The notes below the pieces were generated by a model that was not told where the DNA came from, did not search any database, and saw only the letters and a list, made by a program, of their open reading frames with translations. From a virus, in IMG/VR virus record IMGVR_UViG_3300049846_000494, positions 1 to 22,624 of that record: a stretch of 22,624 nt of DNA; one strand, written 5' to 3'. The position numbers and the translations under genes were made by a program. Of this stretch, positions 3,525-21,258 are shown piece after piece; the first letter of the stretch is position 1; each line of letters opens with the position of its first letter.

Positions 3525-4884
3525 GCGCCTGATGGATCCGGTATGCCCAGCCCGGACTGTAACCGCGTTCTTTAGCTAGGGCGAGCAGTTGCGGAAGGGT
3601 GCGAGCTGCTTGGCGTTGGCGTTTGAATTGGTCGCGTTCTGCCATGCGTTGTTGCACCTGTTCGCGTTTGAGCTCTTTTAGTTCACCCATCAGCTGCCGG
3701 ATCTTGCTGTTGCGAATTGGCACGCATTGATGGCCGCAGACTGGGCATTGCGGCTGCGGCTTGAATGCCGCAAAGCACTGGTCACAGGTGCGGACCGATG
3801 GCGCTGGTGTGCCGCGGGTGCGCTTCATGCGGTCATCGAGTGACCAGTCGCGTGGATCATCAGGGAATCCATGGCGGGTGACGTTGCCGACGTGATCGAG
3901 AATCACAGCGTGTGGCTTGTCTGGTGTAGGGCGCAGCACGCGGCCCACCTGCTGCAGGTAGAGCCCGAGCGATTGTGTTGGCCTGAGAAGGATTGCGCAG
4001 CTGGCGGCCGGGACATCGAAGCCCTCGCTCACCACGTCGACGGTCACCAAGATGCGCGTGTCCCGGCTGGAAAAATCAGCCACCACCTGCTCACGGTCTG
4101 GTGTGTCACCTAACAACAACTCCGCTGTGATCCCAGCCGTCTTAAATGCGTCGCACACTGAAATGGCATGTTTGATATTGCAGCAGAAAGCGATGGCCTG
4201 TTGGCCTGCTGCCAAGCGCTGGTAGTGGCTGATGGCATCACCCGTCACCGTGGGCCGATCCATAGCGGCCGCGGCCTGATCATTGGCATAGTCGCCGGCT
4301 CGGGTGCGGACGCTTGCCAGATCAGCCACCACAGGCGGCGCATAGATCCGTGCAGGTGAGAGGTGGGCGGTGAACACCAGATCGGCCACAGATGGGCCAA
4401 GTACCAACTGATCGAACGCGGAGCGCAACCCACATCCGTCGAGGCGGCATGGCGTGGCTGTGACGCCCAAGCGGTAGGCATCGGGCCAGTGATCGAGGAT
4501 GCGCGCCCACTGACCAGCTGTGGCGTGATGGGCCTCATCAATGATGATCAGGCCGGGTTGCCAGTCCATGCGGGTTAGGCGCCGGGCGAGCGTTTGCACG
4601 GATGCGATCTGCACGGGTGCATCTGTGGCTGGCACACCAGCCGCGATGATGCCGTGATCGAGACCGACCCATTGGAGCTTGCTGCTGGCTTGATGGATCA
4701 GCTCACGGCGATGCACGAGGATCAGCACGCGGTTGCCTTTGGCTGCAGCGCTGGCGGCGATGGTGGCAAATACGACGGTCTTGCCGCCGCCCGTTGGCAG
4801 CACTAGCAACGGTGAACGCGCGCCAGCCCGATAGGCGTTGCGCAGATCATCGATGGCGCGCTGCTGGTAGGGGCGAAGCTGCAC
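3511..4884 (-). CDS. SF2 DEAD/DEAH-box helicase with zinc ribbon
   Basis: A 457-residue superfamily 2 helicase. The two RecA-like domains carry a Q-motif-like LRPYQQRAI at residues 3-11, motif I LPTGGGKT (29-36), motif II DEAH (115-118), motif III TATP (141-144) and motif VI QVGRVLRP (311-318). After the helicase core come a four-Cys zinc ribbon (Cys366, Cys369, Cys379, Cys382), a Lys/Arg/Gln-rich helix and a short C-terminal SPGWAYRIHQAR segment. This arrangement is common in phage and RadD/SSL2-type helicases that work in replication fork repair or start. It begins at GTG 4884; the nearby ATG at 4894 is out of frame. It is the first gene of the leftward replication set and is divergent from the RecE-like gene, with only 53 bases between the starts. 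Confidence 0.88.
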   Translation of the reverse strand: MQLRPYQQRAIDDLRNAYRAGARSPLLVLPTGGGKTVVFATIAASAAAKGNRVLILVHRRELIHQASSKLQWVGLDHGIIAAGVPATDAPVQIASVQTLARRLTRMDWQPGLIIIDEAHHATAGQWARILDHWPDAYRLGVTATPCRLDGCGLRSAFDQLVLGPSVADLVFTAHLSPARIYAPPVVADLASVRTRAGDYANDQAAAAMDRPTVTGDAISHYQRLAAGQQAIAFCCNIKHAISVCDAFKTAGITAELLLGDTPDREQVVADFSSRDTRILVTVDVVSEGFDVPAASCAILLRPTQSLGLYLQQVGRVLRPTPDKPHAVILDHVGNVTRHGFPDDPRDWSLDDRMKRTRGTPAPSVRTCDQCFAAFKPQPQCPVCGHQCVPIRNSKIRQLMGELKELKREQVQQRMAERDQFKRQRQAARTLPQLLALAKERGYSPGWAYRIHQARGQR

Positions 4885-4888
4885 GGGG

Positions 4889-4917
4889 TTGCATCCAATG
4901 GCAATAGCCTATAGGGT
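4889..4917 (+). promoter_or_regulatory. divergent control region with CCTATAGGG element
   Basis: The 53-base gap between the divergent helicase and exonuclease genes holds TTGCAT (4889-4894) and TATAGG (4910-4915). The 15-base spacing is short for a sigma-70 promoter. The CCTATAGG palindrome (4908-4915) matches the one at 974-981. Position argues for a rightward promoter of the recombination cassette, but the boxes are weak. Confidence 0.35.
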
Positions 4918-4937
4918 GCCGCAAGTTGCCACAACCT

Positions 4938-5768
4938 ATGGACAACGCCTCTTACCACGTTCATCCTGCTGTCTCAAAGTCTCATCTGGATCTCATTGCG
5001 AGATCACCGCTGCACTACTGGGCGCGGTACTTAGATCCGAACCGCGTTGCACCAGAGCCCAGCGCTGCAATGCGCCTTGGCACTGCGCTGCACACGCATG
5101 TCTTGGAGCTGAGTCGATGGGATGACGAGATCGCCGTGGCTCCTGCGTGTGATCGTCGCACCAAGGCTGGCAAAGATGCGTTTGCATCATTCGAGGCCAG
5201 CGCTGCTGGCAAGACCGTCATCACCGCCGACGATGCCGATGTGGTCATGGCGATGGGCCGCAGCGTGATGCGCCATCCAGGTGCAGCAATGCTGCTGGGA
5301 TTGCCTGGCAAGGCAGAGACCACGCACATGTGGACGGATCCGCTCTATGGCATCGAATGCAAGTGCCGGCCTGACTGGCTGACCGATGACGGCAGCATCA
5401 TCGTGGATCTCAAGACGACGCGCGATGCCAGCCCGCGTGGGTTCCGCCAGAGCATCGCGTCGTATCGGTATCACGTGCAGGCCAGCTGGTATCTGCATGG
5501 CGTTCACGCTGCCACTGGCAAGCGGCCTGATCAGTTCATCTTCATCTGTGTCGAGTCAACAGCTCCCTATGCGTGTGCGGTTTATGCCGCAGATGCGGAG
5601 ATGATCGAGCGTGGCCACGAGCAGGCCATGAAGGATCTAGGCAGGCTGGCTGTCTGCAAGGCGGCTGACAGCTGGCCGAGCTACAGCGATCAGATCGAAA
5701 CCATCAGCCTGCCCGGTTGGATGACGGGCCAGGGCGGGCAACAGCTCACCGAGATTGAGACCTACTAA
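4938..5768 (+). CDS. RecE-like PD-(D/E)XK exonuclease (DUF3799 type)
   Basis: A 276-residue nuclease resembling the C-terminal nuclease domain of RecE/exodeoxyribonuclease VIII. It would chew 5' ends to expose single strands for the annealing protein encoded next. Visible active-site elements are GTALH with His52, KCRPDW with Asp146, the IVDLKTT strand with Asp157 and Lys159, and YHVQASWY with Gln181 and Tyr185. ATG 4938 is chosen because the N-terminus then begins just before the conserved YHVHPAVSKS region; an in-frame TTG at 4926 would add four residues. The stop overlaps the RecT-like start by one base (TAATG), a coupled RecE-RecT pair. The fold is well supported; substrate polarity is inferred from the family. 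Confidence 0.85.
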   Translation: MDNASYHVHPAVSKSHLDLIARSPLHYWARYLDPNRVAPEPSAAMRLGTALHTHVLELSRWDDEIAVAPACDRRTKAGKDAFASFEASAAGKTVITADDADVVMAMGRSVMRHPGAAMLLGLPGKAETTHMWTDPLYGIECKCRPDWLTDDGSIIVDLKTTRDASPRGFRQSIASYRYHVQASWYLHGVHAATGKRPDQFIFICVESTAPYACAVYAADAEMIERGHEQAMKDLGRLAVCKAADSWPSYSDQIETISLPGWMTGQGGQQLTEIETY

Positions 5769-6436
5769 TGACTGACAGCACAGCACTCATCACCACCCAG
5801 CCCGGCGGCTCGGTGTTTTCGGGGATTGAACAATTCGAGAACGCTCAGCGGATCGCCAAGGCCTTGGCCAGCAGCACGCTCATCCCGCCGCAATTCCAGG
5901 GGCAGCAGGGCTTTGCCAACTGCTTGGTTGCGCTTGAAATCGCAGGGCGCATGGGCATCAGTCCGTTCCTTGCGATGCAACATCTGCATGTGATCCACGG
6001 CCGCCCCAGTTGGAGCAGCAGTTTCATCATTGCGATGGTCAACGGCTGCGGTCGGTTCAGCCCGCTGCGGTTTGAGATGAGCGGTGAAGGTGACAGCCTC
6101 GCTTGCTATGCCGTGGCGACTGACCTTGCCAGCCAGCAGGAACTAAAGGGGCCCACGATCACGATGACCATGGCCAAGCGCGAAGGCTGGGCTACCAAGT
6201 CAGGCAGCAAGTGGGCGACCATGCCTGAGCTGATGATCCGTTACCGGGCTGCAGCCTTCTGGGGCCGGCTGTATGCCAGCGACATGCTGCTTGGTATGCA
6301 GAGCCAAGAAGAGGTGCTCGATGTGGAGCCGGTCATGGTCACCACTGCCCCTGCTGCCACCAGCGTGGCGGATCTGAATGCAAAGCTGCAGGCTGACCCT
6401 GAGCCCGCCGTGATCGAAACCGATGAGCTCTTCTGA
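5768..6436 (+). CDS. RecT-like single-strand annealing protein
   Basis: A 222-residue protein of the RecT-like phage recombinase group, which anneals complementary single strands produced by the partner exonuclease. I recognise the family block ALEIAGRMGISPFLAMQHL (residues ~57-75), then HVIHGRPSWSSSF, MAKREGW and the C-terminal PELMIRYRAAAFWGRLY. A variable tail of about 35 residues rich in Ala and Asp follows. The start overlaps the stop of the RecE-like gene by one base, and the 3' end overlaps the small helix-turn-helix gene by 14 bases. The close pairing with a RecE-like nuclease and a downstream SSB supports the role in phage recombination. Confidence 0.82.
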   Translation: MTDSTALITTQPGGSVFSGIEQFENAQRIAKALASSTLIPPQFQGQQGFANCLVALEIAGRMGISPFLAMQHLHVIHGRPSWSSSFIIAMVNGCGRFSPLRFEMSGEGDSLACYAVATDLASQQELKGPTITMTMAKREGWATKSGSKWATMPELMIRYRAAAFWGRLYASDMLLGMQSQEEVLDVEPVMVTTAPAATSVADLNAKLQADPEPAVIETDELF

Positions 6437-6608
6437 CTATCTGACGGCCACGCAGCTGGCAACCCGATGGGGCCTGCACCCTGACACGCTGATGCGCTGG
6501 CGTAAGGCGGGCAAGGGTCCGTCGTATTTCAGAACTCCCGGCTTCGTGCTCTATCCCCTGGCCGAGGTAGAGCAATACGAAAAGGCCAACACCATTACCC
6601 ACGAGTGA
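6423..6608 (+). CDS. small MerR/excisionase-type helix-turn-helix protein
   Basis: A 61-residue protein with the winged-helix pattern of the HTH_17/excisionase group: YLTATQLATRWGLHPDTLMRWRKAGKGP (first and recognition helices, residues ~6-33), followed by a wing with YFRTPGFVLYPLAEVEQYE. Such proteins bind DNA as excisionases or small regulators. The gene starts inside the end of recT and its stop lies two bases before the SSB ATG, so it is translated as part of the recombination cassette. No integrase is visible, so an excisionase role is only one option; local transcription control is another. Confidence 0.75.
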   Translation: MSSSDYLTATQLATRWGLHPDTLMRWRKAGKGPSYFRTPGFVLYPLAEVEQYEKANTITHE

Positions 6609-6610
6609 TC

Positions 6611-7042
6611 ATGAGCTTCAACGGAACAGTGACCGGCAACCTGGCTCGAGATCCTGAGCTAAAGGCTTTTGATAATGGCAGCATGGTCTGCAACATTGTC
6701 ATTGGCGTCAAACGTCCCAAGCGCCGTGGCGAGGATCAGCCCCCTTTCTGGGTAAAGGCGCAAATCTGGGGCAAACAGGCTGAGATGGCGGCTGACTGGA
6801 TGCACAAAGGTGATCTGGTGCTGCTTACTGGCGAGATTTCCGAGGAGCGTTTCCAAAAGCGCGATGGCTATCAAGGCTTTGCTGTTGTGGTTGAAAACGC
6901 ACGTTTTGAGCTGCTGCAGTCGAAGGCTGCCTCTCCTGCGCCTGCGCTCCAAGCTGCCGCACAGGCCACCGCTGCGGCTCAGAGCCTGGCTGCGGCCACT
7001 GACGGCGTGGTTGCCGAGGTGATCGAGGAGCCGTTCTTCTAA
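6611..7042 (+). CDS. ssb: single-stranded DNA-binding protein
   Basis: A 143-residue SSB with one OB fold at residues ~1-105: FNGTVTGNLARDPELK, MVCNIVIGVKR, FWVKAQIWGKQAE, GDLVLLTGEI and a final VVVENARFELL strand. An Ala-rich flexible linker follows and the chain ends in an acidic-hydrophobic tip (EEPFF), matching the partner-docking tail of bacterial SSBs. ATG 6611 is preferred over GTG 6605 because the usual N-terminus begins at this Met. It coats single strands and probably works with the RecE/RecT-like pair directly upstream. Its stop overlaps the stop of the small convergent gene by two bases. Confidence 0.92.
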   Translation: MSFNGTVTGNLARDPELKAFDNGSMVCNIVIGVKRPKRRGEDQPPFWVKAQIWGKQAEMAADWMHKGDLVLLTGEISEERFQKRDGYQGFAVVVENARFELLQSKAASPAPALQAAAQATAAAQSLAAATDGVVAEVIEEPFF

Positions 7043-7242
7043 CGCCCCATCAGCTCGCACTCGAGGCGAGCGATCTCGTTAACGGCCTGCTGCAGCAGCT
7101 GCTGCTGATAGCAGGCTTGTTTCAGGAGCGCGGCAGCCATTGGGCCTGCATCTTTGCTTGTGAGCAGGGTGCGGGCCTGTTTTTCGATCTCGAACTGCTG
7201 CTCTGGCGATAGCTGGACAGCCATCCACTCACCGAAGTTCAT
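7039..7242 (-). CDS. small helical protein, faint NblA resemblance
   Basis: A 67-residue, nearly all-helical protein on the strand opposite to its neighbours. The central part has LSPEQQFEIEKQAR, a short break, then a Gln-rich helix QQQLLQQAVNEIARLE. The pattern of an EQ(E/Q)F start followed by two helices is similar to NblA, the small phycobilisome-degradation adaptor found in cyanobacteria and some freshwater cyanophages. The similarity is short and may be a generic helical pattern. ATG 7242 or ATG 7224 could be the start; the second begins just before the similar region. Its stop overlaps the SSB stop. If not NblA-like, it is an unknown small phage protein. Confidence 0.55.
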   Translation of the reverse strand: MNFGEWMAVQLSPEQQFEIEKQARTLLTSKDAGPMAAALLKQACYQQQLLQQAVNEIARLECELMGR

Positions 7243-7278
7243 GGTGCCATAGTGGAGGGGTACAGGTTCAGGTTACCT

Positions 7279-7512
7279 ATGGAGTGCCCACGCTGCGGTA
7301 GCGGTGAGATCAGGGCGATTGCGACGAACGGGAAGCAACCTGACAAGGTGACCCGCCAGCGGCGATGTGTGGACTGCCGCCACGTCTGGTACACGGTTGA
7401 GCTGCCGGTGAGCCTGGTGGCAATCGGCTGGGCACGGACACCGGATACCAACAAAAGCGTGCCCGTTCTTAGGGTCCCGGTGGAATTGGCGGTTGGCACC
7501 AATGCTGTGTAA
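7279..7512 (+). CDS. zinc-ribbon protein (NrdR/Ogr-like ribbon)
   Basis: A 77-residue protein that starts with CPRCG and has a second knuckle CVDC (Cys3, Cys6, Cys30, Cys33), then HVWYTVE. The spacing resembles the zinc ribbon of NrdR and of phage Ogr-type activators, with basic residues between the knuckles (KVTRQRR) suited to nucleic-acid binding. The ATP-cone of true NrdR is absent. ATG 7279 is chosen because it places the first Cys pair at the N-terminus; GTG 7252 would add nine residues. It sits just upstream of the lambda-like promoter at 7533, so it may be a transcription regulator, but that is inference. Confidence 0.65.
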   Translation: MECPRCGSGEIRAIATNGKQPDKVTRQRRCVDCRHVWYTVELPVSLVAIGWARTPDTNKSVPVLRVPVELAVGTNAV

Positions 7513-7532
7513 CGGGATATGACAACGACCCG

Positions 7533-7560
7533 TTGACGTACACCGCTGGCGGTGTATCAT
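7533..7560 (+). promoter_or_regulatory. sigma-70 promoter with lambda-like palindromic operator
   Basis: TTGACG (7533-7538) and TATCAT (7555-7560) form a good sigma-70 promoter with 16-base spacing. The whole spacer is an 18-bp perfect palindrome, TACACCGC-TG-GCGGTGTA (7539-7556), running into the -10 box. The block CTGGCGGTG also occurs at the same place in lambda pL and pR, where it is part of the CI/Cro operators. A repressor bound here would block RNA polymerase directly. The promoter faces the twelve-gene operon beginning at 7700. Confidence 0.7.
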
Positions 7561-7699
7561 CACGGCACGAGGGGAGCGGTCCACTCGCAAAACTCAACCG
7601 CCGGCCGAACAGCGCACACGAGGCCGCTAAACCCGAGCGCAACAGGGCCTGACTAAGCCCGCATCGCCGGTTGGCCCGGCACATTTATCTATCACCACC
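7561..7699 (+). other. leader of the microgene operon
   Basis: About 130 bases of untranslated leader between the promoter and the first ATG. It can form two short hairpins: GGGC/GCCC (7645-7648 with 7657-7660) and GCCGG/CCGGC (7666-7670 with 7676-7680). The block GCAACAGGGCCT (7639-7650) is repeated exactly at 10556-10567 after the last gene of the same operon. No Shine-Dalgarno site precedes ATG 7700; instead the bases are TCACCACC, as before ATG 11654. Confidence 0.45.
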
Positions 7700-7855
7700 A
7701 TGAAGCACGCACTGACGAGCGACTGGGGGCCGATTCTTTACGTATGGACTGCTCAGCTCGCCGAAATCATCGTGGCCGTGTACGTAGCCGGGCTAATGCT
7801 CGGCGCGTGGCTGCATCGCCTCAACAACCGCATCGCCAAGATGGTCGCATCATGA
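7700..7855 (+). CDS. small single-pass membrane protein
   Basis: A 51-residue protein, first in the operon. Residues ~11-38 (from PILYVWTAQL through the Leu/Gly-rich part) form one long hydrophobic segment, followed by a basic tail HRLNNRIAK, predicting a single membrane helix with the C-terminus in the cytoplasm. The stop overlaps the start of the next gene as ATGA. No family is recognised. The neighbour also encodes a tiny membrane protein, so the two could form a pair. The gene is supported by the ATG, the leader position and the exact overlap with the following gene. Confidence 0.65.
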   Translation: MKHALTSDWGPILYVWTAQLAEIIVAVYVAGLMLGAWLHRLNNRIAKMVAS

Positions 7856-7989
7856 TCAACCGCATCAACAACGCCATTTGCCTGCTGATCGTTGCTGGCG
7901 TGTTCGCCATGATCGGCATCGAATCCGGAAATCAAACCAGTGCCACTCACTCTGGTACGCAGTCCTATGTGGAGGTGCGCCATGACTGA
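7852..7989 (+). CDS. small membrane protein, second of a pair
   Basis: A 45-residue protein with one hydrophobic segment at residues ~8-24 (AICLLIVAGVFAMIGI) after a short basic start (MINRINN), and a polar Ser/Thr-rich tail. It could be an N-terminally anchored membrane protein or carry an uncleaved signal. It starts inside the stop of the preceding membrane protein (ATGA) and its own end overlaps the next start by eight bases. Function is unknown. Small phage membrane proteins of this kind include superinfection-exclusion factors and holin-like proteins, but nothing in the sequence selects among these. Confidence 0.6.
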   Translation: MINRINNAICLLIVAGVFAMIGIESGNQTSATHSGTQSYVEVRHD

Positions 7990-8155
7990 ACGCCGTTACT
8001 ACTTTCAGATTCCAAGCTGCAACGTGATCGACTGCGTGATGGCGGTAAGCATCACGGACGCTAAGGATCAAGCGTTCAAGGAATACGGCCACCAGTGGCC
8101 CGATCTTGAGTGGATCAATGCCGACACCGTTACTGAGTCTGTGATCTATGGCTGA
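7982..8155 (+). CDS. small hypothetical protein
   Basis: A 57-residue soluble protein beginning MTERRYYFQIPSC. Two beta-like strands are followed by a helix with ITDAKDQAFKEYGHQWPDLEWI and a final strand. No family is recognised. The helix-then-WP layout (AKDQAFKEYGHQWPD) is loosely repeated in the next gene (KKHAIRYAQNRWPGA), suggesting the two may be distant relatives. Start and stop both overlap neighbours by eight bases, the usual spacing in this operon. Confidence 0.6.
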   Translation: MTERRYYFQIPSCNVIDCVMAVSITDAKDQAFKEYGHQWPDLEWINADTVTESVIYG

Positions 8156-8381
8156 GGTTAAAGGCGCGTTGTTTCAATGGCGCAACGATGAAGAGGTTGG
8201 CGCTTGTTATGGCGAAGGCGTCAGCAGGCCACGCCACAATGCCCGCGTGCGTGACTACACCGTGATGGTCTACCCGCGAGGCGGGCAACCACTGAAGTGG
8301 TATACACGGGCCGAAAGCAAGAAGCACGCGATCCGATACGCGCAGAACCGCTGGCCTGGCGCCACAGTGGAGGTGATGTGA
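8148..8381 (+). CDS. small hypothetical protein
   Basis: A 77-residue protein with mixed strands and one C-terminal helix: DYTVMVYPRGG and LKWYTRAESKKHAIRYAQNRWPG, then TVEVM. The strand-strand-helix-strand pattern suggests a compact alpha/beta fold, perhaps related to the preceding gene product. It overlaps the previous gene by eight bases and its stop overlaps the next start as TGATG. No function can be assigned. Confidence 0.6.
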   Translation: MAEVKGALFQWRNDEEVGACYGEGVSRPRHNARVRDYTVMVYPRGGQPLKWYTRAESKKHAIRYAQNRWPGATVEVM

Positions 8382-8584
8382 TGGCAGATCACATTCGCGC
8401 CAAACTGGAAGCTTTGATCAGCGATTCCGGCATGTTCAACGCCGGCCGCCAGGAAGAACGTGTGCGACTGGGCAACCTACTGCGCGTTCGCCTGGATGAG
8501 CTGGCCAATCTGCCAAGCCATCCGCACATTTCCGCACGCCGCGAAGAATTGCTCAACATCTTGCAAGCCCTAGTGATCCCATGA
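8381..8584 (+). CDS. small helical hypothetical protein
   Basis: A 67-residue, mostly helical protein. A first helix (HIRAKLEALISD), a second basic helix (GRQEERVRLGNLLRVRLDELAN) and a third (ARREELLNILQALV) are separated by short turns, suggesting a small helical bundle. No known family is recognised. ATG 8381 overlaps the preceding stop as TGATG and the end overlaps the following start as ATGA, which supports this start over upstream ones in the same frame. Confidence 0.6.
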   Translation: MADHIRAKLEALISDSGMFNAGRQEERVRLGNLLRVRLDELANLPSHPHISARREELLNILQALVIP

Positions 8585-8871
8585 ACCGAGTGCAACTGGA
8601 TCAGCAACGCGCCAACATGATGGACGCGCTCTACGAGCGCAGCGGCCGTGATGAACTGCCCTACGGCCATCCACTCCGCAGCACCTACACCGGCCTGTGG
8701 GAAGAATTTTGCCGCGACATTGCAGCCAACTTTCGGGACACTGACTACGCGGACATGTTCGCCCGCGTGGTGGGTGCCATGGATGCCACGCAGTCGGTGA
8801 TGACTGAGAAACAGGCCCAGCAGGCGATCGAGGTTTGCCGGCAGCAGCTGCTGGGGGATAAGTGGCGATGA
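8581..8871 (+). CDS. hypothetical protein
   Basis: A 96-residue, mainly helical protein with the motif DALYERSGRDELPYGHPL (residues ~15-32) followed by TYTGLWEEFCRDIA. I associate this style with conserved small proteins of cyanobacterial phages, but I cannot name a family or role. The start overlaps the previous stop and the stop overlaps ATG of thyX (ATGA), so it is translated directly ahead of thymidylate synthase. Confidence 0.65.
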   Translation: MNRVQLDQQRANMMDALYERSGRDELPYGHPLRSTYTGLWEEFCRDIAANFRDTDYADMFARVVGAMDATQSVMTEKQAQQAIEVCRQQLLGDKWR

Positions 8872-9494
8872 GCGTTGAGCTGATCCACTGCACGCCAGAT
8901 GCTGAGGCGTTGATCGTCAAGATGGCCAGGGTGAGCAATCCGGCCAACGCCGACAATCAGGCCACCGCGCCAAGGCTGCTGCGCTACCTGATCCGGCACC
9001 GGCACTGGTCACCGTTCGAGATGGCCAGCCTGTGCCTGAAGATCGAAACCGAGCGCGATATCGCGGCGCAGATCCTGCGGCACCGGTCGTTCAGCTTCCA
9101 GGAGTTCTCCACCCGTTACGCCGTCACCGGCCGTGCGCAGGCGCCACGCTTGCGCCGGCAAGACACGGAGAACCGGCAGAACAGCCACGACGATCTGGAC
9201 CCGACAGCGCAGCAGGCATGGGGCAACCTGCTGAGCGATCACCTCACGCGATCCCACGCGCTCTACCAGCAGTTGCTGGAGCAGGGCATTGCCAAGGAGA
9301 CAGCGCGCCGGATCCTGCCACTCTGCACGCCAACCACGCTTTATATGCACGGCACGCTCAGAAGCTGGATCCACTACATCAATGTGCGGACTGATCCGTC
9401 AACGCAGCTGGAGCACCGTGAGATTGCGTTGGCCGCGCGCGAGATCTTCGCTCAGCAGTTCCCCGCCATTGCAGAGGCCGCCTTCAATGACTGA
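8868..9494 (+). CDS. thyX: flavin-dependent thymidylate synthase ThyX
   Basis: A 208-residue ThyX, the FAD-dependent enzyme that methylates dUMP to dTMP using methylenetetrahydrofolate and NADPH. The family signature RHR-x7-S is present as RHRSFSFQEFS (residues 71-81), followed by TRY. The C-terminal substrate-binding part has SWIHYINVRTDPSTQLEHRE. The length is typical for ThyX. ATG 8868 is chosen because it overlaps the preceding stop as ATGA; an in-frame GTG at 8862 would add two residues. The 3' end overlaps the DUF3310 gene by eight bases. Together with the dCTP deaminase-family gene at 11896 it would let the phage make dTMP from host dCTP. Phages often carry this gene to raise thymidine supply. 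Confidence 0.95.
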   Translation: MSVELIHCTPDAEALIVKMARVSNPANADNQATAPRLLRYLIRHRHWSPFEMASLCLKIETERDIAAQILRHRSFSFQEFSTRYAVTGRAQAPRLRRQDTENRQNSHDDLDPTAQQAWGNLLSDHLTRSHALYQQLLEQGIAKETARRILPLCTPTTLYMHGTLRSWIHYINVRTDPSTQLEHREIALAAREIFAQQFPAIAEAAFND

Positions 9495-9720
9495 TCCAAT
9501 CAACCCAGACCACTATCGCCGCGGCCCAGTGGAGGCCATCGACGTGATCGAGGCTGCCATAGCGGATGCGCCGCATATGGTGCCCGCCTACTTGCACGGT
9601 CAGGCGCTCAAGTATCTGCTGCGGCTGTGGTGTAAGGGCAATGCTCTGCAAGATGCCCGGCAAGATGCCCGCAAGTGCCGCTGGTATCTCGATCGGCTGA
9701 TTGCCAAACTAGAGGGATGA
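9487..9720 (+). CDS. DUF3310 protein
   Basis: A 77-residue protein of the DUF3310 family, recognised by INPDHYRRGPVEAIDVIEA at residues 5-23 and the C-terminal GQALKYLLRLWCKGN ... DARKCRWYLDRLI. The domain is widespread in phages, often near nucleotide-metabolism genes, and occurs in proteins related to the T7 gene 1.7 nucleotide kinase. Here it stands alone without an extra domain. It starts inside the end of thyX (eight-base overlap), which fits a nucleotide-metabolism role, though the activity of the isolated domain is uncertain. Its end overlaps the next start. Confidence 0.85.
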   Translation: MTDPINPDHYRRGPVEAIDVIEAAIADAPHMVPAYLHGQALKYLLRLWCKGNALQDARQDARKCRWYLDRLIAKLEG

Positions 9721-9947
9721 TGCACCTGCCAGGCCTAAACCTGCTCGAGCGCTTTGCGCTGTGGTTGTTGGTGCGCAGCCCGCGAACCAGCATGGTGGTG
9801 GTGAAAGAACTGCACTGGCCAACGGTGTTTGTGGCGGCCAATCCGCTGGATCCGGTGGCGGCGCACGTCACGGGCGGCCAATCAGAACCAGCCTCGCTGC
9901 AGCTCGAGCGGATCTACCACCTGCCGAGCTACGGGGAAGACGAGTGA
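9717..9947 (+). CDS. small hypothetical protein
   Basis: A 76-residue protein with a hydrophobic N-terminal part (LNLLERFALWLLV), two beta-like strands (SMVVVKELHW, TVFVAANP) and an acidic tail. ATG codons at 9717 and 9720 are both possible starts; the first overlaps the DUF3310 stop as ATGA, and AGAGGG just upstream could be a Shine-Dalgarno site. The N-terminus may be an amphipathic helix rather than a true membrane segment. No family is recognised. Confidence 0.6.
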   Translation: MMHLPGLNLLERFALWLLVRSPRTSMVVVKELHWPTVFVAANPLDPVAAHVTGGQSEPASLQLERIYHLPSYGEDE

Positions 9948-10267
9948 TCAGTCTGCACGCCGGCCGTTTGCTGCTGGTGTGCAGCCGCTCCGATCACAAC
10001 TGGCACGCGCGCATCGTGCTCGGTCCGAAACCCGAGCTGCAGCTCGAGGCCGATACCGGCACCGTGCAGCTGCAGGAAGCGCTGCTGCGGGCGCAGTCGA
10101 TCTATCGCGCAGCGGTCACCAACCTGCGGCCAGCTGGTGGCGCGCCAATGTGTTGGGATTGCCGCTTCTGGGAGATGGGGCACCAGCGCTGCGGGTATGA
10201 GTTGCCAGAATCGAAGAGAAGCGGCGGCCGTTTCGCGGCCAGGTGTGATCTCTATGTTCGGTCCTGA
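9944..10267 (+). CDS. small protein with C-terminal Cys cluster
   Basis: A 107-residue protein. Residues 1-55 form strands and a helix (HAGRLLLVCSRS, HARIVLGPK, LQEALLRAQSIYRAAV). The last 45 residues carry CWDCRFWEMGHQRCGYELPE and a final AARCDLY, a C-x2-C ... C ... C pattern that often binds zinc or a metal cluster in small phage proteins. It starts with GTG 9944, which overlaps the previous stop as GTGA, and it overlaps the next gene by 14 bases. Function is unknown. Confidence 0.6.
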   Translation: MISLHAGRLLLVCSRSDHNWHARIVLGPKPELQLEADTGTVQLQEALLRAQSIYRAAVTNLRPAGGAPMCWDCRFWEMGHQRCGYELPESKRSGGRFAARCDLYVRS

Positions 10268-10424
10268 GGTGCTCAGCCGCACCGAGCGCGATGGCGGCAG
10301 CATCGAAACGCTGATGCCAGTCAACGGCGAGATCTATTACCGCAGCTGCGTTGGCGGCACATGCCGCTACAGCTCCGACCTATGGCAGGCCGAGCTATAC
10401 CTCGATCACCTGCTCGGCCGCTGA
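10254..10424 (+). CDS. small hypothetical protein
   Basis: A 56-residue protein beginning MFGPEVLSRTERDGG and ending with WQAELYLDHLLGR. Two predicted strands (EIYYRSCVGGTCRY) contain two Cys four residues apart. It starts 14 bases before the stop of the preceding gene and its stop overlaps the next start as TGATG. No family or role is recognised. Confidence 0.5.
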   Translation: MFGPEVLSRTERDGGSIETLMPVNGEIYYRSCVGGTCRYSSDLWQAELYLDHLLGR

Positions 10425-10510
10425 TGCTCCACGACGTGCTGATCCTGGTGGTGGAGTATTGGGTGACGTGCCTGATCGCGCTGTGGGTGTGCAGCCGGAT
10501 TCTGCCCTAG
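10424..10510 (+). CDS. 28-residue membrane microprotein
   Basis: The last reading frame of the operon encodes 28 residues, almost all hydrophobic (HDVLILVVEYWVTCLIALWVC), enough for one membrane helix. ATG 10424 overlaps the preceding stop as TGATG, the same coupling used through the operon, which is the main reason to believe in it. It ends with a TAG shortly before the structured 3' region. Function is unknown; a chance frame cannot be excluded. Confidence 0.4.
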   Translation: MLHDVLILVVEYWVTCLIALWVCSRILP

Positions 10511-10536
10511 CCTGACTGCGTTCCCGCTCTGCTTCG

Positions 10537-10613
10537 GCATCGGGCTAAGTCCCTGGCAACAGGGCCTCATCGGGTTTACCAAGTCTGACTCTCTGCAGGC
10601 AGTCCCCCGATGC
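10537..10613 (+). ncRNA. possible structured RNA in the operon 3' region
   Basis: A 77-base stretch is closed by a perfect 8-bp stem, GCATCGGG (10537-10544) with CCCGATGC (10606-10613). Inside are a 5-bp hairpin with a GCAA loop (10551-10564) and a weak hairpin (10586-10604, GACT/AGTC). This gives a three-way-junction-like shape of tRNA size, but no T-arm or anticodon arm fits. It could be a regulatory RNA, an RNA-stabilising 3' end or chance pairing. Confidence 0.3.
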
Positions 10614-10659
10614 GACAACATCAGCGGTCGCGGATTCGCCAAGACTGCCGAGGTAGCCG

Positions 10660-10681
10660 AGCCCCTGGGAAACCGGGGGCT
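10660..10681 (+). terminator. GNRA-capped hairpin, likely end of the microgene operon
   Basis: AGCCCCTGG (10660-10668) pairs with CCGGGGGCT (10673-10681) across a GAAA tetraloop, with one G-U pair. The stem is followed on plus by TTTGGTGTATTTG, a weak U-rich tract. No U-tract follows on the minus strand. Its position 150 bases after the last operon gene fits a rightward terminator of moderate quality. The stretch 10511-10785 has no supportable gene otherwise. Confidence 0.55.
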
Positions 10682-10785
10682 TTGGTGTATTTGGGTGCCC
10701 GGTGGCTGGTCCGCACGAGGTGCCAGCCTCACCGCTGCCGGGCGCAGCGGACGACTGAGATCCGAAGATCAACAGAACCCAGAGC

Positions 10786-11112
10786 TTAGCCATCTGCAAG
10801 CCAACGTGCGATCGCCCACTCGCCCAGAGCTGACCAGAACGGCTGCTGGCGATACCAGTCCACCCACGGCTTGTGCCCCTTGGAGCAGTTGCAGCCCATG
10901 CAGCAGGCGACCATGTTGCTCGGCACGGTAATGCCGCCGTGCGCCTTGGGGATGATGTGATCGAGCGTCGGGCTGCGGCCGAGATCATCGCCGCAGTAGG
11001 CGCAGCGATAGTTCCAGGCGAGGAGGATCTGATCACGGGCTGATCGCCGGGTGACCAGCCGGGTCTCGTCAATCCGGTGTCGATCCACTGAGATCCGGCG
11101 GCAGGGGGACAC
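10786..11112 (-). CDS. HNH endonuclease
   Basis: A 108-residue HNH nuclease with zinc knuckles. CAYC (Cys37, Cys40) is followed by LDHIIPKAHGG (Asp51-His52) and SNMVACCMGCNCSKG (Asn66, Cys71, Cys74, Lys78), the standard beta-beta-alpha-metal layout of McrA-type HNH proteins. Short single-domain HNH proteins of phages act as homing nucleases or in genome packaging; no terminase is in view to favour packaging. Only GTG starts are available: GTG 11112 overlaps the upstream gene by 44 bases, whereas GTG 11088 would reduce this to 20. It lies on the strand opposite to the adjacent microgene operon. Confidence 0.85.
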   Translation of the reverse strand: MSPCRRISVDRHRIDETRLVTRRSARDQILLAWNYRCAYCGDDLGRSPTLDHIIPKAHGGITVPSNMVACCMGCNCSKGHKPWVDWYRQQPFWSALGEWAIARWLADG

Positions 11113-11254
11113 AGTTCACCTCGATGTCGATGATGTCTTCATCGGAGGGGATGAACTCGGCCAGGTGGCTGTAGATGTCAGCTGGCAGGTCGTCGGGATC
11201 GGAGTCCGATCGGATGATGAGCTTGGCGGAGATCTCTAGGTAGAACGCCCGCAT
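11069..11254 (-). CDS. small acidic hypothetical protein
   Basis: A 61-residue acidic protein: strand MRAFYLEISAKLIIRSDS, helix DDLPADIYSHLAEFI, strand DIIDIEVNCVPLP. This simple beta-alpha-beta layout and acidic character are seen in many small phage proteins, but no family is named. ATG 11254 is chosen; the frame stays open further upstream, but the extra residues look like unrelated low-complexity sequence and would cross the promoter region of the divergent gene. It overlaps the HNH gene, suggesting co-transcription. Confidence 0.6.
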   Translation of the reverse strand: MRAFYLEISAKLIIRSDSDPDDLPADIYSHLAEFIPSDEDIIDIEVNCVPLPPDLSGSTPD

Positions 11255-11313
11255 GGGCTGGCCGCCGCTTGCTGCACGGTAGCGGGCGCGACAGGATTGG
11301 GCCTGTGACGGAT

Positions 11314-11369
11314 TGTGAACGGGCCGGCCGATCAGCTCAGGGTGCCCCGTGGGCGGTGTATAGTTCACA
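11314..11369. promoter_or_regulatory. divergent control region with TGTGAAC/GTTCACA arms
   Basis: Between the divergent genes at 11254 and 11390 lie TATAGT (11359-11364), a possible rightward -10 box without a clear -35, and a 7-bp inverted repeat TGTGAAC (11314-11320) / GTTCACA (11363-11369). The block GGCGGTGTAT (11352-11361) matches the right half of the palindrome in the promoter at 7533-7560, at the same place relative to the -10 box. This suggests shared control but is weak evidence. Confidence 0.4.
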
Positions 11370-11389
11370 CATCGACAGCCACCACTCCG

Positions 11390-11614
11390 ATGACCCTCCC
11401 CACCATCGCCAACCGCACCAGCCACTTCCTGATCTCCGCCGATGGCACCCAGCTGGTTCGCTTCTCTGACGCCGGCGACCACCAGATGCTGATGAATCGC
11501 TTTGCTCTCGAAGCTGGCGAATGGGCTCCCCAGGGTGGCGGCTTTGATTGGACTGGCAAAATGCGCCAGCGCTACCAAGCCCTCACTGCCAAGGGCTACC
11601 GCAAGGTCGCCTGA
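11390..11614 (+). CDS. small hypothetical protein
   Basis: A 74-residue protein: FLISADGTQLVRFSDAG (two strands), a helix HQMLMNRFALEAGEW and a basic C-terminal helix KMRQRYQALTAKGYRKV. The compact alpha/beta pattern and basic end might suit nucleic-acid binding, but no family is recognised. It has its own putative promoter just upstream and is followed by a GC-rich UNCG hairpin. The longer frame from 11315 would begin before the putative -10 box, so ATG 11390 is preferred. Confidence 0.65.
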   Translation: MTLPTIANRTSHFLISADGTQLVRFSDAGDHQMLMNRFALEAGEWAPQGGGFDWTGKMRQRYQALTAKGYRKVA

Positions 11615-11622
11615 CCCCTACC

Positions 11623-11640
11623 GGGGCGCTCCGGCGCCCC
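11623..11640 (+). terminator. UNCG-capped GC hairpin after the small gene
   Basis: GGGGCGC (11623-11629) pairs perfectly with GCGCCCC (11634-11640) across a TCCG loop, giving a C(UCCG)G cap, one of the most stable RNA hairpins. It begins nine bases after the stop at 11614 and lacks a U-tract. It may partly terminate or protect the upstream message, or separate translation of the two small genes. Confidence 0.5.
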
Positions 11641-11653
11641 TAACCTCACCACC

Positions 11654-11842
11654 ATGCAATACATCCTCCGCATCGGTCCGTGGCACGTCGGACCGTTTCC
11701 GACCCACATCTCGGCGCAGCACTTCGCCGAGAGCCACGGCTGCGATGACTACACGATGATTCCGTTGGACGATCCGGCTGAGGCGCCGGGGCGGATCTAT
11801 CGGCTGCGCATGGCGGATCTGCAGCATCCGATGCGCAAATAA
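11654..11842 (+). CDS. small hypothetical protein
   Basis: A 62-residue protein starting MQYILRIGPWHVGPF, with THISAQHFAESHGCDDYTMIPLDDP and a C-terminal YRLRMADLQHP. The strand-helix-strand order suggests a small alpha/beta fold. No family is recognised. The start is preceded by TCACCACC rather than a Shine-Dalgarno site, identical to the start of the operon at 7700. Its stop runs directly into the A-tract of the opposite-strand terminator of the dCTP deaminase gene. Confidence 0.65.
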   Translation: MQYILRIGPWHVGPFPTHISAQHFAESHGCDDYTMIPLDDPAEAPGRIYRLRMADLQHPMRK

Positions 11843-11865
11843 AAAACCCGGCTGGCTAGGCCGGG
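11841..11865 (-). terminator. intrinsic terminator of the dCTP deaminase gene
   Basis: Read on minus, CCCGGC (11865-11860) pairs with GCCGGG (11852-11847) over a 7-base loop and is followed by six T. It lies 30 bases beyond the stop of the deaminase gene at 11896. This is the best intrinsic terminator in the window. On the plus strand the hairpin is present but no U-tract follows. Confidence 0.85.
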
Positions 11866-11895
11866 GCAGGCGTCCACTCGTTCTCCGGTGTCAGG

Positions 11896-12414
11896 CTAGC
11901 CCTTGCTCGCGGTGACGCCGAGATCGCCGTTGTAGCGGCCAGTGATCGCGTAGCTGCGGCCGGGGATGCCTTCCATCTTGTGGAAGACCATCTGGCCGAT
12001 CTTCATGCCAGGCCAGATCCCGATCGGGTGCATCCGGCGCGCATTGCTCAGCTCCAGCGTGAGGCGGCTGTTATGCCACCCTGGATCACACCAGCCGGCC
12101 AGCAGGTGCTCGAGGCCTTCGCGGGCGCGGCTGGACTTGAGCACGAACTGCGCCGCGATGAAGTCCGGCAGGTTGAAGATCTCGCGCGTCTCCGCCAGGC
12201 AGAACTCACCCGGCTGCAGCCAGTACGGGTCCTCCGCGGTGTGGCCGGCGATGCCGTGGATCTGCAGCTCAGGGCGATCCGCCACCTCGATCATGATCCG
12301 ATCGCCCAGCAGCACATCGATGCTGGCCGGATTCACTAGCTCAGGATCGAATGGCACCACCATCGCGTGGCGCTTGCACAGGTCGTGGATCTCGTAGTCG
12401 GGCAGCGGAGCCAT
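11896..12414 (-). CDS. dcd: dCTP deaminase / dUTPase-family protein
   Basis: A 172-residue protein of the Dcd/Dut trimeric family. Visible motifs are NPASIDVLLGDR (residues 28-39), KSSRAREGL (93-101), GWCDPGWH (107-114) and LTLELSN with the probable catalytic Glu121, then PGMKIGQMVF (135-144). These match dCTP deaminase rather than plain dUTPase. The Gly-rich C-terminus RYNGDLGVTAS could be the lid that closes over the substrate. The enzyme removes the amino group of dCTP; some relatives go on to dUMP. The product feeds ThyX encoded at 8868. ATG 12414 is preferred because the extra 27 residues of the longer frame have no family character. The gene ends at a strong terminator and is divergent from the homing endonuclease gene. 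Confidence 0.87.
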   Translation of the reverse strand: MAPLPDYEIHDLCKRHAMVVPFDPELVNPASIDVLLGDRIMIEVADRPELQIHGIAGHTAEDPYWLQPGEFCLAETREIFNLPDFIAAQFVLKSSRAREGLEHLLAGWCDPGWHNSRLTLELSNARRMHPIGIWPGMKIGQMVFHKMEGIPGRSYAITGRYNGDLGVTASKG

Positions 12415-12487
12415 GCGCGCGCAGTAGGATTGGGGTGCTCCAGCGGGTTGCCGCCCCTGAAGCGTGACCACCTGCAGGACCCAGGCG

Positions 12488-13015
12488 ATGACCACCAGCG
12501 TAGAGGTGTGGAAGCCCGTTGTCGGCTACGAAGGGCTTTATGAAGTGTCGGATCACGGCCGGGTCAGAAGCTTGCGCAACCGCCGCTGGTGCGGCAGCCA
12601 CTGGTACGAAGTGCCGATCAGTGCGATGAAGGCCACTATTGCCCGCAACGGTTATCCCGTGGTCAGGCTTACCAAAGAAGGCCGTGGTCGCACTGTCGCT
12701 GTTCACACGATTGTGTTGACCGCTTTTTGTAGTTCAAAGCCAGCGGGACAAGAGTGCCGGCATCTCAATGGGAATCCTCAAGACTCCCGCTTGTGCAATC
12801 TGGCTTGGGGAACGCCGCTTGAAAATACAGAAGACCGCAAAAGGCATGGAACCATGCCTCAAGGTCCTAAGCATCACGCAGCAAAGCTCACTATTGAACA
12901 AGTGCTTAAGATTCGAACCGCAACAGGCGCCCATCGAGAAATTGCACAGCGCTATGGGATTGCTGCTTCTGCCGTCTCAACGATAAAAAGCCGCAAGTCT
13001 TGGTCTTGGCTCTAA
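12488..13015 (+). CDS. NUMOD4-HNH homing endonuclease with C-terminal HTH
   Basis: A 175-residue homing-type endonuclease. Residues ~7-55 are NUMOD4 (VWKPVVGYEGLYEVSDHGRVRSL). Residues ~68-122 form the HNH_3 nuclease: VHTIVLTAF, CRHLNGNPQDSRLCNLAWGT, LENTEDRKRHG. The last ~45 residues (KLTIEQVLKIRT, HREIAQRYGIAASAVSTIKSRKSW) are a helix-turn-helix DNA-binding module. Such free-standing HNH genes spread by cutting phage DNA lacking them. It is on plus between two minus genes, interrupts the late-strand order and is visibly less GC-rich than its neighbours, all signs of recent insertion. Its stop overlaps the endolysin stop by two bases. Confidence 0.92.
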   Translation: MTTSVEVWKPVVGYEGLYEVSDHGRVRSLRNRRWCGSHWYEVPISAMKATIARNGYPVVRLTKEGRGRTVAVHTIVLTAFCSSKPAGQECRHLNGNPQDSRLCNLAWGTPLENTEDRKRHGTMPQGPKHHAAKLTIEQVLKIRTATGAHREIAQRYGIAASAVSTIKSRKSWSWL

Positions 13016-18919: not shown

Positions 18920-21258
18920 CACAGATCTTTCCTTGTCGAAGTAACGACAGTCCCGTTGGTCAGAGTTGCAGTAAGACGGAATCCAACTACAGGATCAGAG
19001 AAGCAACCTACATTAGTCAAAGCAGTTATAAATCCGTTGCTTGGATTCCAATAAGCCGGTCTGAATATAGATGGATTACTACATGCAGGTGTGCTAGTAG
19101 CAAATACAACTGGCGGTGAGCTAAATTGCCCTAATACCTGTTCAAAACCTATTATCCAGCTCAACGTATAGAAAGAGACATTTCCTGGATATGGATCCCA
19201 AGTTGCACCAGGGAAAGAGCCGCCGCCTATACCAGGGAATGAAATGCCACCTGTAGGTGCGCCCCATCCATCTGGAGATGATGGATCCACGCACCTAGCA
19301 TCAGCTTCGAAGCAAGTAGCATTGTCAAACAAATACTCATTAAACAATTCAAACCTAACAAAGCAATCGCCTTCTATTGCTGTGCCTATAGCTATTGGAG
19401 CTTCGCTAAGGCGTACGCCTGATTCGCAATTTATCGCCCACAACCGCACCTCAGCCGGACAGCAAGGCGGTGTCACTGTCACCTCATCACCAGGCAGTAA
19501 TGGGCGATCCGTTGGGATACCGCTAACAGTGGGAGCAGGCGGTGTATCAATCGGATCCTCTGGATTGTTGATACCACCAGTGCCGCCGCCACCTGGCTGT
19601 GAATCTCTGCCACCTTGTGCGTCTGGATTATCTGGATTCTCCGTGCCAGCCGGGAACTCAGGGTCAGGCACATTAGCCGGCCATTCAGGCGAATCAGGAT
19701 CAGGCTCTACATCATCAGGGAAGTCATCAGGCAGGCCGCCAGGCGTGCCACCTTCGTCAGGGATGGGATCCTCATCTTCAGGGTCGTTCACGTCGCAGGT
19801 GAAATCACCGCGGCCGGTCGGATACTCGAAGCCATTGATTGTGGTGCCAGCCACATACAGCGCAACGATGCTGCGGCCGTTCATATCGATGGGGTAGTGC
19901 ATGAGATCAAGTTCAACCGCGCCGCTGAGGCTCTTGTTGATGCGCTCGACCTCATACAAATAGTCGTGATAGGTGACGGCATCCACATCCGTTTCACGCC
20001 GCAGGCGAACCCGCACCACGTCGCCCAATGTCAGTGTGCTGTTGAATGCATCGGGCCGCACACGGATGCGCAGAGTGTGAGTAACAAAAATGCGACGCGC
20101 AGCAAGGTATGCACCAACTTTTGCAGCGTGCAACTCTGACGTGCAGAACTCGCTTAGGTCATGCTGCTCAATCGGTGCATCAACATCGGTGCCTGGCAGG
20201 CGTACCACAGTGGTGCGAATGATGCCGATGTCATCATCAGGCTGCTGCCGCCATAGCACCTGCATTGCAGTGGGCCGACGGTCAGCGTATGGGATGAACT
20301 CGATCTCAAAACCATCCGGCAGCAGATGATCCTCGGTGAAGCCAAACACCCACTCGATGGCAGTGGTGTCGATTGCATACGCGACGGTATAGGGCAGCCG
20401 CGGGCGGAATGCCTTTTTGCCGTTGTTATCACTGACGCGCAGCAGGAAGTAGGTGCTGATGTTTTGCAGCCAGTCCTCTAGGTTCTGCGATGCTTCGACC
20501 GTACCGTTGAAATACAGCTGCTGCGTCTCGGTGAAGTTGGCCGCGGCTGTGAATGTAGCCGTGTCGATCAGCGCATCTGGGAAGCGGCTGGACTGTTTGA
20601 TCAGATAGATCGCTAGATCGCAGACGTTGTTGCTCGATCCTGTTGTGCCTTCAATCAGGCGATCAACAATGATGCCCTGGCGCACGAAACAATGCACCTG
20701 CCGATCCCAGGTGCTGTCACCATCGGCGTGCGTGTTCTCATAGCTCAGCGTGGTCAAGTCGTCGTAATAGCCACTGGTGCCGCAAAACGCTGGGCATGGC
20801 CACAGCTCTGTGCCAGCCACTGGCGTGATGAAGTTGCCAGGCGTCCATGTGCCAGCACGCTGGTCATAGGTTTGCGCCCATGTGCCAACGCGGCAGGCAC
20901 GCTGGAACACATCACGCACCTGCAGCTGCGGCATGTCGCCTTGGCTGAGCACCAGGTGCAGCTTCACCTCCAGTTCGTTGGTAGTGTCATCATTCTCAAA
21001 GCGCCCCTCAGTAGCGCCGGGGCTCACGAACACGCCGCCCACTTCGTAGACAATCGCTGTCGCTACATCCAGGTTCCACCTGTAGGTGGTGCGTGTCACG
21101 CGCTTGCCGAACACAATCGGAACGGTCTCACCGATCACGATGCTGCGCTGGCGGCTATCCAGTGCGCTGTATCCTTCCGCTGCACCTTCGCTGGTTGGTG
21201 CGCTCTGCTCAGGCAGCAGGGTCAGTGGGGCGCTGATCGTGATGCTTGTGCTGGCCAT
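18919..21258 (-). CDS. gpJ-like tail tip / host-specificity protein
   Basis: A 779-residue protein playing the role of the central tail-tip (lambda gpJ-like) hub that contacts the host. Residues ~1-480 hold the hub: RQRSIVIGETVPIVFGKRVTR near the start, a cysteine-containing TTLSYENTHADGDS region, and DVVRVRLRRETDVDAVTYHDYLYEVERI near 430. A linker of about 90 residues extremely rich in Pro, Asp and Gly follows (~486-575). The last ~195 residues are a Cys-rich beta domain of visibly AT-rich DNA (about 18930-19450), unlike the hub. This looks like an exchangeable receptor-binding tip. It begins at ATG 21258 and its stop overlaps the following gene's start. Confidence 0.8.
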   Translation of the reverse strand: MASTSITISAPLTLLPEQSAPTSEGAAEGYSALDSRQRSIVIGETVPIVFGKRVTRTTYRWNLDVATAIVYEVGGVFVSPGATEGRFENDDTTNELEVKLHLVLSQGDMPQLQVRDVFQRACRVGTWAQTYDQRAGTWTPGNFITPVAGTELWPCPAFCGTSGYYDDLTTLSYENTHADGDSTWDRQVHCFVRQGIIVDRLIEGTTGSSNNVCDLAIYLIKQSSRFPDALIDTATFTAAANFTETQQLYFNGTVEASQNLEDWLQNISTYFLLRVSDNNGKKAFRPRLPYTVAYAIDTTAIEWVFGFTEDHLLPDGFEIEFIPYADRRPTAMQVLWRQQPDDDIGIIRTTVVRLPGTDVDAPIEQHDLSEFCTSELHAAKVGAYLAARRIFVTHTLRIRVRPDAFNSTLTLGDVVRVRLRRETDVDAVTYHDYLYEVERINKSLSGAVELDLMHYPIDMNGRSIVALYVAGTTINGFEYPTGRGDFTCDVNDPEDEDPIPDEGGTPGGLPDDFPDDVEPDPDSPEWPANVPDPEFPAGTENPDNPDAQGGRDSQPGGGGTGGINNPEDPIDTPPAPTVSGIPTDRPLLPGDEVTVTPPCCPAEVRLWAINCESGVRLSEAPIAIGTAIEGDCFVRFELFNEYLFDNATCFEADARCVDPSSPDGWGAPTGGISFPGIGGGSFPGATWDPYPGNVSFYTLSWIIGFEQVLGQFSSPPVVFATSTPACSNPSIFRPAYWNPSNGFITALTNVGCFSDPVVGFRLTATLTNGTVVTSTRKDL

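Follow-up and report, generated by a model that had tools for sequence, protein, structure and literature searches.

In phage lambda the operators OL and OR lie inside the -35/-10 spacers of pL and pR, three to a promoter, and the block CTGGCGGTG stands directly before the -10 box of both promoters. The regulator NrdR, whose consensus is AT-rich, normally requires an ATP-cone for the formation of tetramers, plus a pair of boxes, and the put RNAs of HK022 consist of two plain stem-loops near the start of early phage transcripts. The palindromic boxes that NrdR recognizes measure 16 bp, and each half is bound by its own zinc ribbon (PMC12051234); in Pseudomonas aeruginosa such a box overlaps the -10 box (PMC4409342). 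Among cyanophages, manA, wcaG and PhotoRC-II are described as 5′ UTR RNAs (PMC2864571).

The locus reported here lies in a virus record of 22,624 bases (IMG/VR IMGVR_UViG_3300049846_000494), analyzed over its whole length and called the window below. The comparisons that follow identify its site at 7533-7560 as a control switch conserved among viruses of cyanobacteria from fresh and estuarine waters, and as no relative of the lambda switch.

The Phage and Its Relatives

Around the site are genes for a primase-polymerase/VapE protein, a VRR-NUC protein, a helicase, a DUF3799 nuclease, a RecT-like protein, a small HTH protein and an SSB-like protein (so called after its own sequence and the ssb gene annotated in S-CBS3), a small minus-strand gene and the gene for a zinc-ribbon protein that we call ZR. 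Beyond ZR there is a plus-strand cluster with thyX and, farther along, dCTP deaminase, lysozyme and tail genes on the minus strand.

7279-7512, plus strand: ZR, 77-aa NrdR-like zinc ribbon without ATP-cone, proposed operator-binding regulator (Pfam, PDB profile and fold search)
7700-7855, plus strand: opening gene of the cluster, whose 51-aa product is probably a small membrane protein (direct translation)
8862-9494, plus strand: thyX, flavin-dependent thymidylate synthase (Pfam Thy1, E = 2e-45)

The relatives comprise the Synechococcus phages S-CBS1 and S-CBS3 along with hundreds of IMG/VR contigs, collected through the RecT-like protein (301 relatives, of which 80 were kept). The latter are metagenomic contigs of uncertain completeness and, because the sequences are related, the counts given below are not independent and the shuffles are uncorrected for relatedness. 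The relatedness to S-CBS1 and S-CBS3 supports the preliminary description of this DNA in its guess of a cyanobacterial phage; of the twelve-gene operon that it placed downstream of the site, the plus-strand cluster was confirmed, with about eleven small genes from 7700 to ~10424.

Three other elements of the neighborhood were recorded. A 67-aa minus-strand gene at 7039-7242, divergent from ZR, has 87-98% identity across many relatives; by eye it looks like a small NblA-like or coiled protein, and it matched no family. A strong terminator-like hairpin follows the cluster at 10659-10682 (plus strand), and an ORF that by eye resembles an HNH endonuclease occupies 10786-11112 (minus strand), within a 600-base stretch 81-89% identical in relatives.

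Promoter A Encloses a Dyad

7519-7525, plus strand: TATGACA, counterpart in the window of a TGTNACA-like motif of relatives, possibly a site for an activator or second regulator
7533-7538, plus strand: -35 hexamer TTGACG of promoter A (promoter scan)
7539-7556, no strand: operator A, the dyad TACACCGC-TG-GCGGTGTA, which shares its last two bases with the start of the -10 box (symmetry, simulation, relatives)
7555-7560, plus strand: -10 hexamer TATCAT of promoter A, with the start of transcription predicted at ~7567 from the constant spacing to the leader RNA in relatives

Promoter A matches the sigma-70 hexamers at 10 of 12 positions with a spacer of 16 bp, inside the 16-18 bp range, and it is the only sigma-70-like match within 4800-12500. 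TTGACG and TATCAT were read correctly in the preliminary description. The 18-bp palindrome that was called perfect is symmetric at 16 of 18 positions, since its 8-bp arms flank a central TG that is not palindromic (the reverse complement of operator A is TACACCGCCAGCGGTGTA). The whole window has just two dyads whose arms reach 8 bp or more, the other one (AGGCATGGAACCATGCCT) being located at 12842-12859 inside a plus-strand HNH gene. In 200 Markov-simulated windows, no promoter scoring 10/12 or better enclosed a dyad with 8-bp arms; the combination is far beyond chance, and this agrees with the earlier view that the operator and the sigma-70-type promoter are fused. At 7540-7555 the dyad reads ACAC-N8-GTGT, a 16-bp palindromic box with NrdR-box-like spacing. 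The dyad and matrix scans of the window revealed no tandem operators or box pair at promoter A, where the dyad is single. In nearly all the relatives that were aligned, the TGTNACA-like motif precedes the -10 box by ~29-31 bp.

Comparison with the relatives shows that both promoter and dyad are maintained. Across the relatives examined, with 81 copies of ZR (54 distinct), the promoter directly follows that gene, and the dyad center keeps its distance of 7 bp to the -10 box though the sequences differ. With the right half and the -10 box as the sole anchors, 53 distinct promoters averaged 5.79 symmetric pairs out of 9 at the expected center and 1.8-2.8 at centers slid by 1-3 bp. At least eight pairs at the best center were reached by 12 of 79 distinct regions, compared to 0.7 expected, and strong dyads of other sequence were present in a few lineages, namely TGCCCTACG|CGTAGGGCA in L062/L063, CGCCACC|GGTGGCG in L052 and TGCACCGTC|GACGGTGTA in L041. 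Re-dealing the halves among the relatives gave 291 pairs versus 307 observed, a value reached in 21 of 2000 trials; therefore, the symmetry resides mainly in the consensus TGCACCG-N4-CGGTGTA and the covariation is weak. In the scan of relatives for the palindrome, named beforehand as a check, the dyad is kept at ZR-linked promoters, and the CTGGCGGTG block is not.

A Second Site in the Window

11343-11360, no strand: site B, TGCCCCGTG|GGCGGTGTA, another member of the operator A family (5/9 symmetric, matrix score 27.4)
11359-11364, plus strand: TATAGT, the -10 hexamer of promoter B, which precedes the 74-aa gene
11390-11614, plus strand: 74-aa gene downstream of promoter B (direct translation)

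A matrix built from the relatives' promoters scored 27.4 at 11343, the best value of the window, and 23.6 at 7539, whereas the best of 20 shuffled windows reached 16.4. Site B is conserved in three relatives (G002, G015 and G007) and on these comparisons is a real and conserved second site. A right-half copy had been announced here at a possible -10 box, and it was found at 11353-11362 with one mismatch (GCGGTGTATA), inside the best matrix site. The copy in the tail gene, located at 19539-19548, does not score above 7 and is not promoter-like, so it looks like chance, as had been suspected. A weak dyad (4-5/9) is seen in many relatives which, together with the 5/9 of site B, indicates that symmetry is not strictly needed.

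The Dyad Accompanies the Zinc-Ribbon Gene

The search of ZR against Pfam Zn_ribbon_NrdR gave E = 4e-6 and 27.1 bits, marginally under the 27.2 cut-off, for an N-terminal zinc ribbon of the NrdR family, and a PDB profile search returned NrdR as best matches (E = 0.002). The AlphaFold model of ZR has a pLDDT of 81; NrdR occupied all ranks from 1 to 11 in a fold search of the PDB, and 43 residues superposed on one NrdR structure at 1.5 Å. The zinc ribbon pattern CPxC...RxRxCxxC...TxE is the same as in NrdR. Unlike NrdR, ZR stops at residue 77 and the domain search found no ATP-cone in it; where NrdR has boxes paired 15-16 bp apart the phage promoter has one, which makes ZR NrdR-like and not an NrdR. 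Like the NrdR boxes of PMC12051234 and PMC4409342, operator A is a palindrome of 16 bp that overlaps parts of its promoter. It differs from the NrdR box in its GC-rich center and in that it would control a cluster with thyX, no ribonucleotide reductase being seen in the window. Since its profile and fold matches are to NrdR, which binds 16-bp palindromes with one ribbon per half, ZR is probably the operator-binding protein and likely binds the dyad. A literature search for NrdR in phages produced nothing useful.

Promoters that precede the same leader RNA (see below) offer a comparison. Those linked to ZR had 6.06 of 9 pairs (34 distinct), whereas the non-ZR ones had 2.02 of 9 (42 distinct; Mann-Whitney p = 6e-13, uncorrected for relatedness). 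ZR was generally not found in the non-ZR leader genomes checked, S-CBS1 and S-CBS3 included; one of them, G024, matched ZR weakly (E = 7e-4) and has 4 of 9 pairs. By sequence, the dyad thus co-occurs with the adjacent NrdR-like zinc-ribbon gene, although the association could reflect shared ancestry, given the physical linkage of gene and dyad and the kinship of the phages. The small MerR/excisionase-like HTH protein was rejected as dyad binder: six non-ZR genomes, in which the dyad is absent, retain it, so that the dyad tracks ZR and not this protein. A phage sigma factor reading the site was also rejected, as it was absent from the 18 relatives searched; in the isolates, sigma-70 region 2 genes are present at 22356-22568 (S-CBS3) and 20889-21104 (S-CBS1).

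A Double-Pseudoknot Leader at the Transcript Start

Downstream of the -10 box the relatives have a common non-coding stretch, which is predicted to be transcribed as follows.

~7567-7680, plus strand: leader RNA, 114 nt (covariation; model match at 7601-7680, 97.5 bits)
7568-7571 with 7584-7587, plus strand: P1 (leader model)
7576-7580 with 7597-7601, plus strand: pseudoknot 1 (covariation)
7602-7606 with 7622-7626, plus strand: P2, interleaved with P3 (7612-7615 with 7637-7640) to form pseudoknot 2 (covariation)
7645-7648 with 7657-7660, plus strand: hairpin P4 (covariation)
7666-7670 with 7676-7680, plus strand: hairpin P5 (covariation)

A pattern scan of IMG/VR retrieved at least 120 loci, of which 102 distinct cores were read, placing the leader in at least about 100 distinct phage sequences. 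Its 3′ domain, made of two interleaved helices and two hairpins, was paired in 92.7% of cells among 35 distinct domains, with 82 double-change cells versus 23.4 in shuffles (0/500) and a covariation score of 0.381, falling to 0.074 or less when slid. Over 81 distinct domains P3 was paired in 320 of 324 cells, through GCGC/GCGC, GATC/GATC, GGGC/GCCC, GAGC/GCTC and GAAC/GTTC. The loop-tail pseudoknot of the 5′ domain changes in concert (GCGGT/ACCGC, GAGGG/CCCTC, TGGGT/ACCCA) and is weak or missing in one subgroup. Single-sequence folding (z -0.84) is uninformative, since pseudoknots are outside its model. The segments GAAC, ACACGA, CGA and AAC are conserved and unpaired.

The comparison also shows that the position is fixed: the RNA starts 6 nt after the -10 box in 69 of 81 cases and 7 nt after it in 7 of 81, whatever genes adjoin. 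Downstream genes belong to 16 families, and the 51-aa gene of this window is conserved in 21 of 98 leader contexts. In S-CBS3 the leader is 97% identical over 114 nt and lies in an unrelated, unannotated place, where its predicted first base, the A of ACGAG, falls at about 28907 on the minus strand. Rfam gave no match to the leader at E up to 1 (window, L091, L014), and a sub-threshold PhotoRC-I match in L012 lies outside it. The strong covariation and the absence from Rfam identify, at the sequence level, a newly recognized double-pseudoknot RNA. Like manA, wcaG and PhotoRC-II it is a structured cyanophage RNA in or near 5′ UTRs, but it matches no Rfam model, starts at +1 and is bound to no single gene class. 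With the HK022 put RNAs, on which a literature search found nothing useful, it shares structure close to the transcript start, and it differs in having two consecutive pseudoknots and usually one copy per genome.

Two readings of the element were discarded. As a bacterial element it gave three pattern hits only across genomes of 84,980 bacterial/archaeal species, which fail the RNA model and are attributable to chance; paired sites like lambda nut do not fit with the single copy in 27 of 34 phage records. L198 is an exception, with two leader copies and different promoters in one locus.

Other 5′ arrangements were noticed. A second structured-looking element (GCCACAAGCCnGATA...GGGATTCTCCGC), without Rfam match, replaces or follows the leader 5′ domain in L091 (4100-4170), L084, L123, L143 and L014 (8690-8800). 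A third alternative 5′ domain, e.g., ATGGGGCGGACGGAAGCACCCCGGCGAAAGCC, precedes the same 3′ domain in L139, L165, L114, L181, L188, L212, L125 and L225. In L013, L049, L068 and L074 the ZR promoters lack the leader, and the transcript would start with another possible 5′ pseudoknot, GACCGGAGGCGATCGGTCCTCC.

Alternative Explanations

The dyad can be read in ways other than as a ZR operator. Its symmetry could be incidental to a promoter consensus, due either to extended recognition by a host or phage-modified polymerase or to an activator box like that of T4 MotA: the best conserved part is the right half with the -10 box, several relatives without a good -35 box have the TGTNACA-like motif upstream, and site B is symmetric at just 5/9. 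Since, however, the symmetry is specific to one center (5.79 vs. 1.8-2.8), is missing at the non-ZR promoters of the same leader and is kept in divergent sequences such as those of L062 and L052, we regard this explanation as possible but rather doubtful. A host regulator, for instance cyanobacterial NrdR, could bind the dyad, ZR being unrelated to it or competing with the host protein; the ACAC-N8-GTGT spacing would suit it, but the GC-rich center departs from the AT-rich NrdR consensus, the box is single and the dyad sequence diverges among phages that all carry ZR, which makes such a regulator unlikely. Exceedingly improbable is a lambda-type CI/Cro operator governing lysogeny, whether by descent or by close convergence. 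The preliminary description had proposed a lambda-like operator, and the position inside the -35/-10 spacer, with CTGGCGGTG directly before the -10 box, is indeed that of pL and pR. The best match to any of the six lambda operators is nevertheless 12/17, when random windows reach 12-14/17, and the block, said to be that of lambda, is replaced in relatives by TCGACGGTG, CCGACGGTG, CGCGTAGGG and others, L011, the closest relative, alone retaining it. Promoter A has one operator in place of three. Domain searches found S24 peptidase and Phage_integrase in 0 of 18 relatives each, and HTH_3 was over the cut-off in 1 of 20, two others matching weakly (the window, for its part, covers an incomplete genome); as homology, the lambda reading is already refuted by these sequence comparisons, the relatives being without integrase and, nearly all, without CI-type repressors.

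For the leader, a role in 5′-end protection or in antitermination appears the likeliest, a function tied to the transcript 5′ end being favored because the start is fixed at +1 and there is no common downstream gene. A role as ligand-binding riboswitch, or as a phage RNA acting in trans, would account for the conserved unpaired segments and for the swapping of the 5′ domain with two others that look structured. A riboswitch does not need a fixed +1 start, though, and the differing downstream genes (16 families) leave no common regulated gene, so that we hold this alternative to be conceivable and somewhat improbable. It is quite unlikely that the element acts as DNA, e.g., as a transcription-primed replication origin: it is present in one copy per genome, intergenic and beside a promoter, and the counts of G-U and A-C (11 vs. 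9) are too close to tell the strand, but two interleaved covarying helices, a further covarying pseudoknot and the start fixed at +1 speak against it.

Discussion

We propose that promoter A is read by a host-type sigma-70 polymerase and that its core serves as a dimer operator. ZR, encoded immediately upstream, would occupy the dyad as a dimer, with a ribbon on each half-site, excluding RNA polymerase from the -35/-10 region and so switching off or limiting the thyX-containing cluster; promoter B (11343-11364) would be its second target. That ZR represses is what we infer from this arrangement. The transcript would begin at the first base of the 114-nt RNA, with its two consecutive pseudoknots and two hairpins, which may shield the mRNA 5′ end from 5′-end-dependent nucleases or act on the nascent-transcript side of the polymerase, and the leader would be a separate module that phages swap between promoters. 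This model as a whole, a dimer operator in promoter A bound by ZR and a separate +1 leader module, has in our judgment an even chance of being right. We are equally divided on the broader claim that the leader represents an undescribed family of 5′-terminal double pseudoknots, promoter-swapped and always at +1, placed here under a phage mini-NrdR operator with two target promoters, repressor class and leader both being new to phages.

Little is known of how siphovirus-type cyanophages control their early genes. ZR with its dyad provides a testable regulator-operator pair and suggests that a zinc ribbon of the NrdR type may function in the absence of the nucleotide-sensing cone. The leader adds a strongly supported, widespread structured RNA, which is testable in culture because the isolates S-CBS1 and S-CBS3 carry it, and which, starting at the first transcribed base, may bear on mRNA survival against host nucleases or on polymerase modification.
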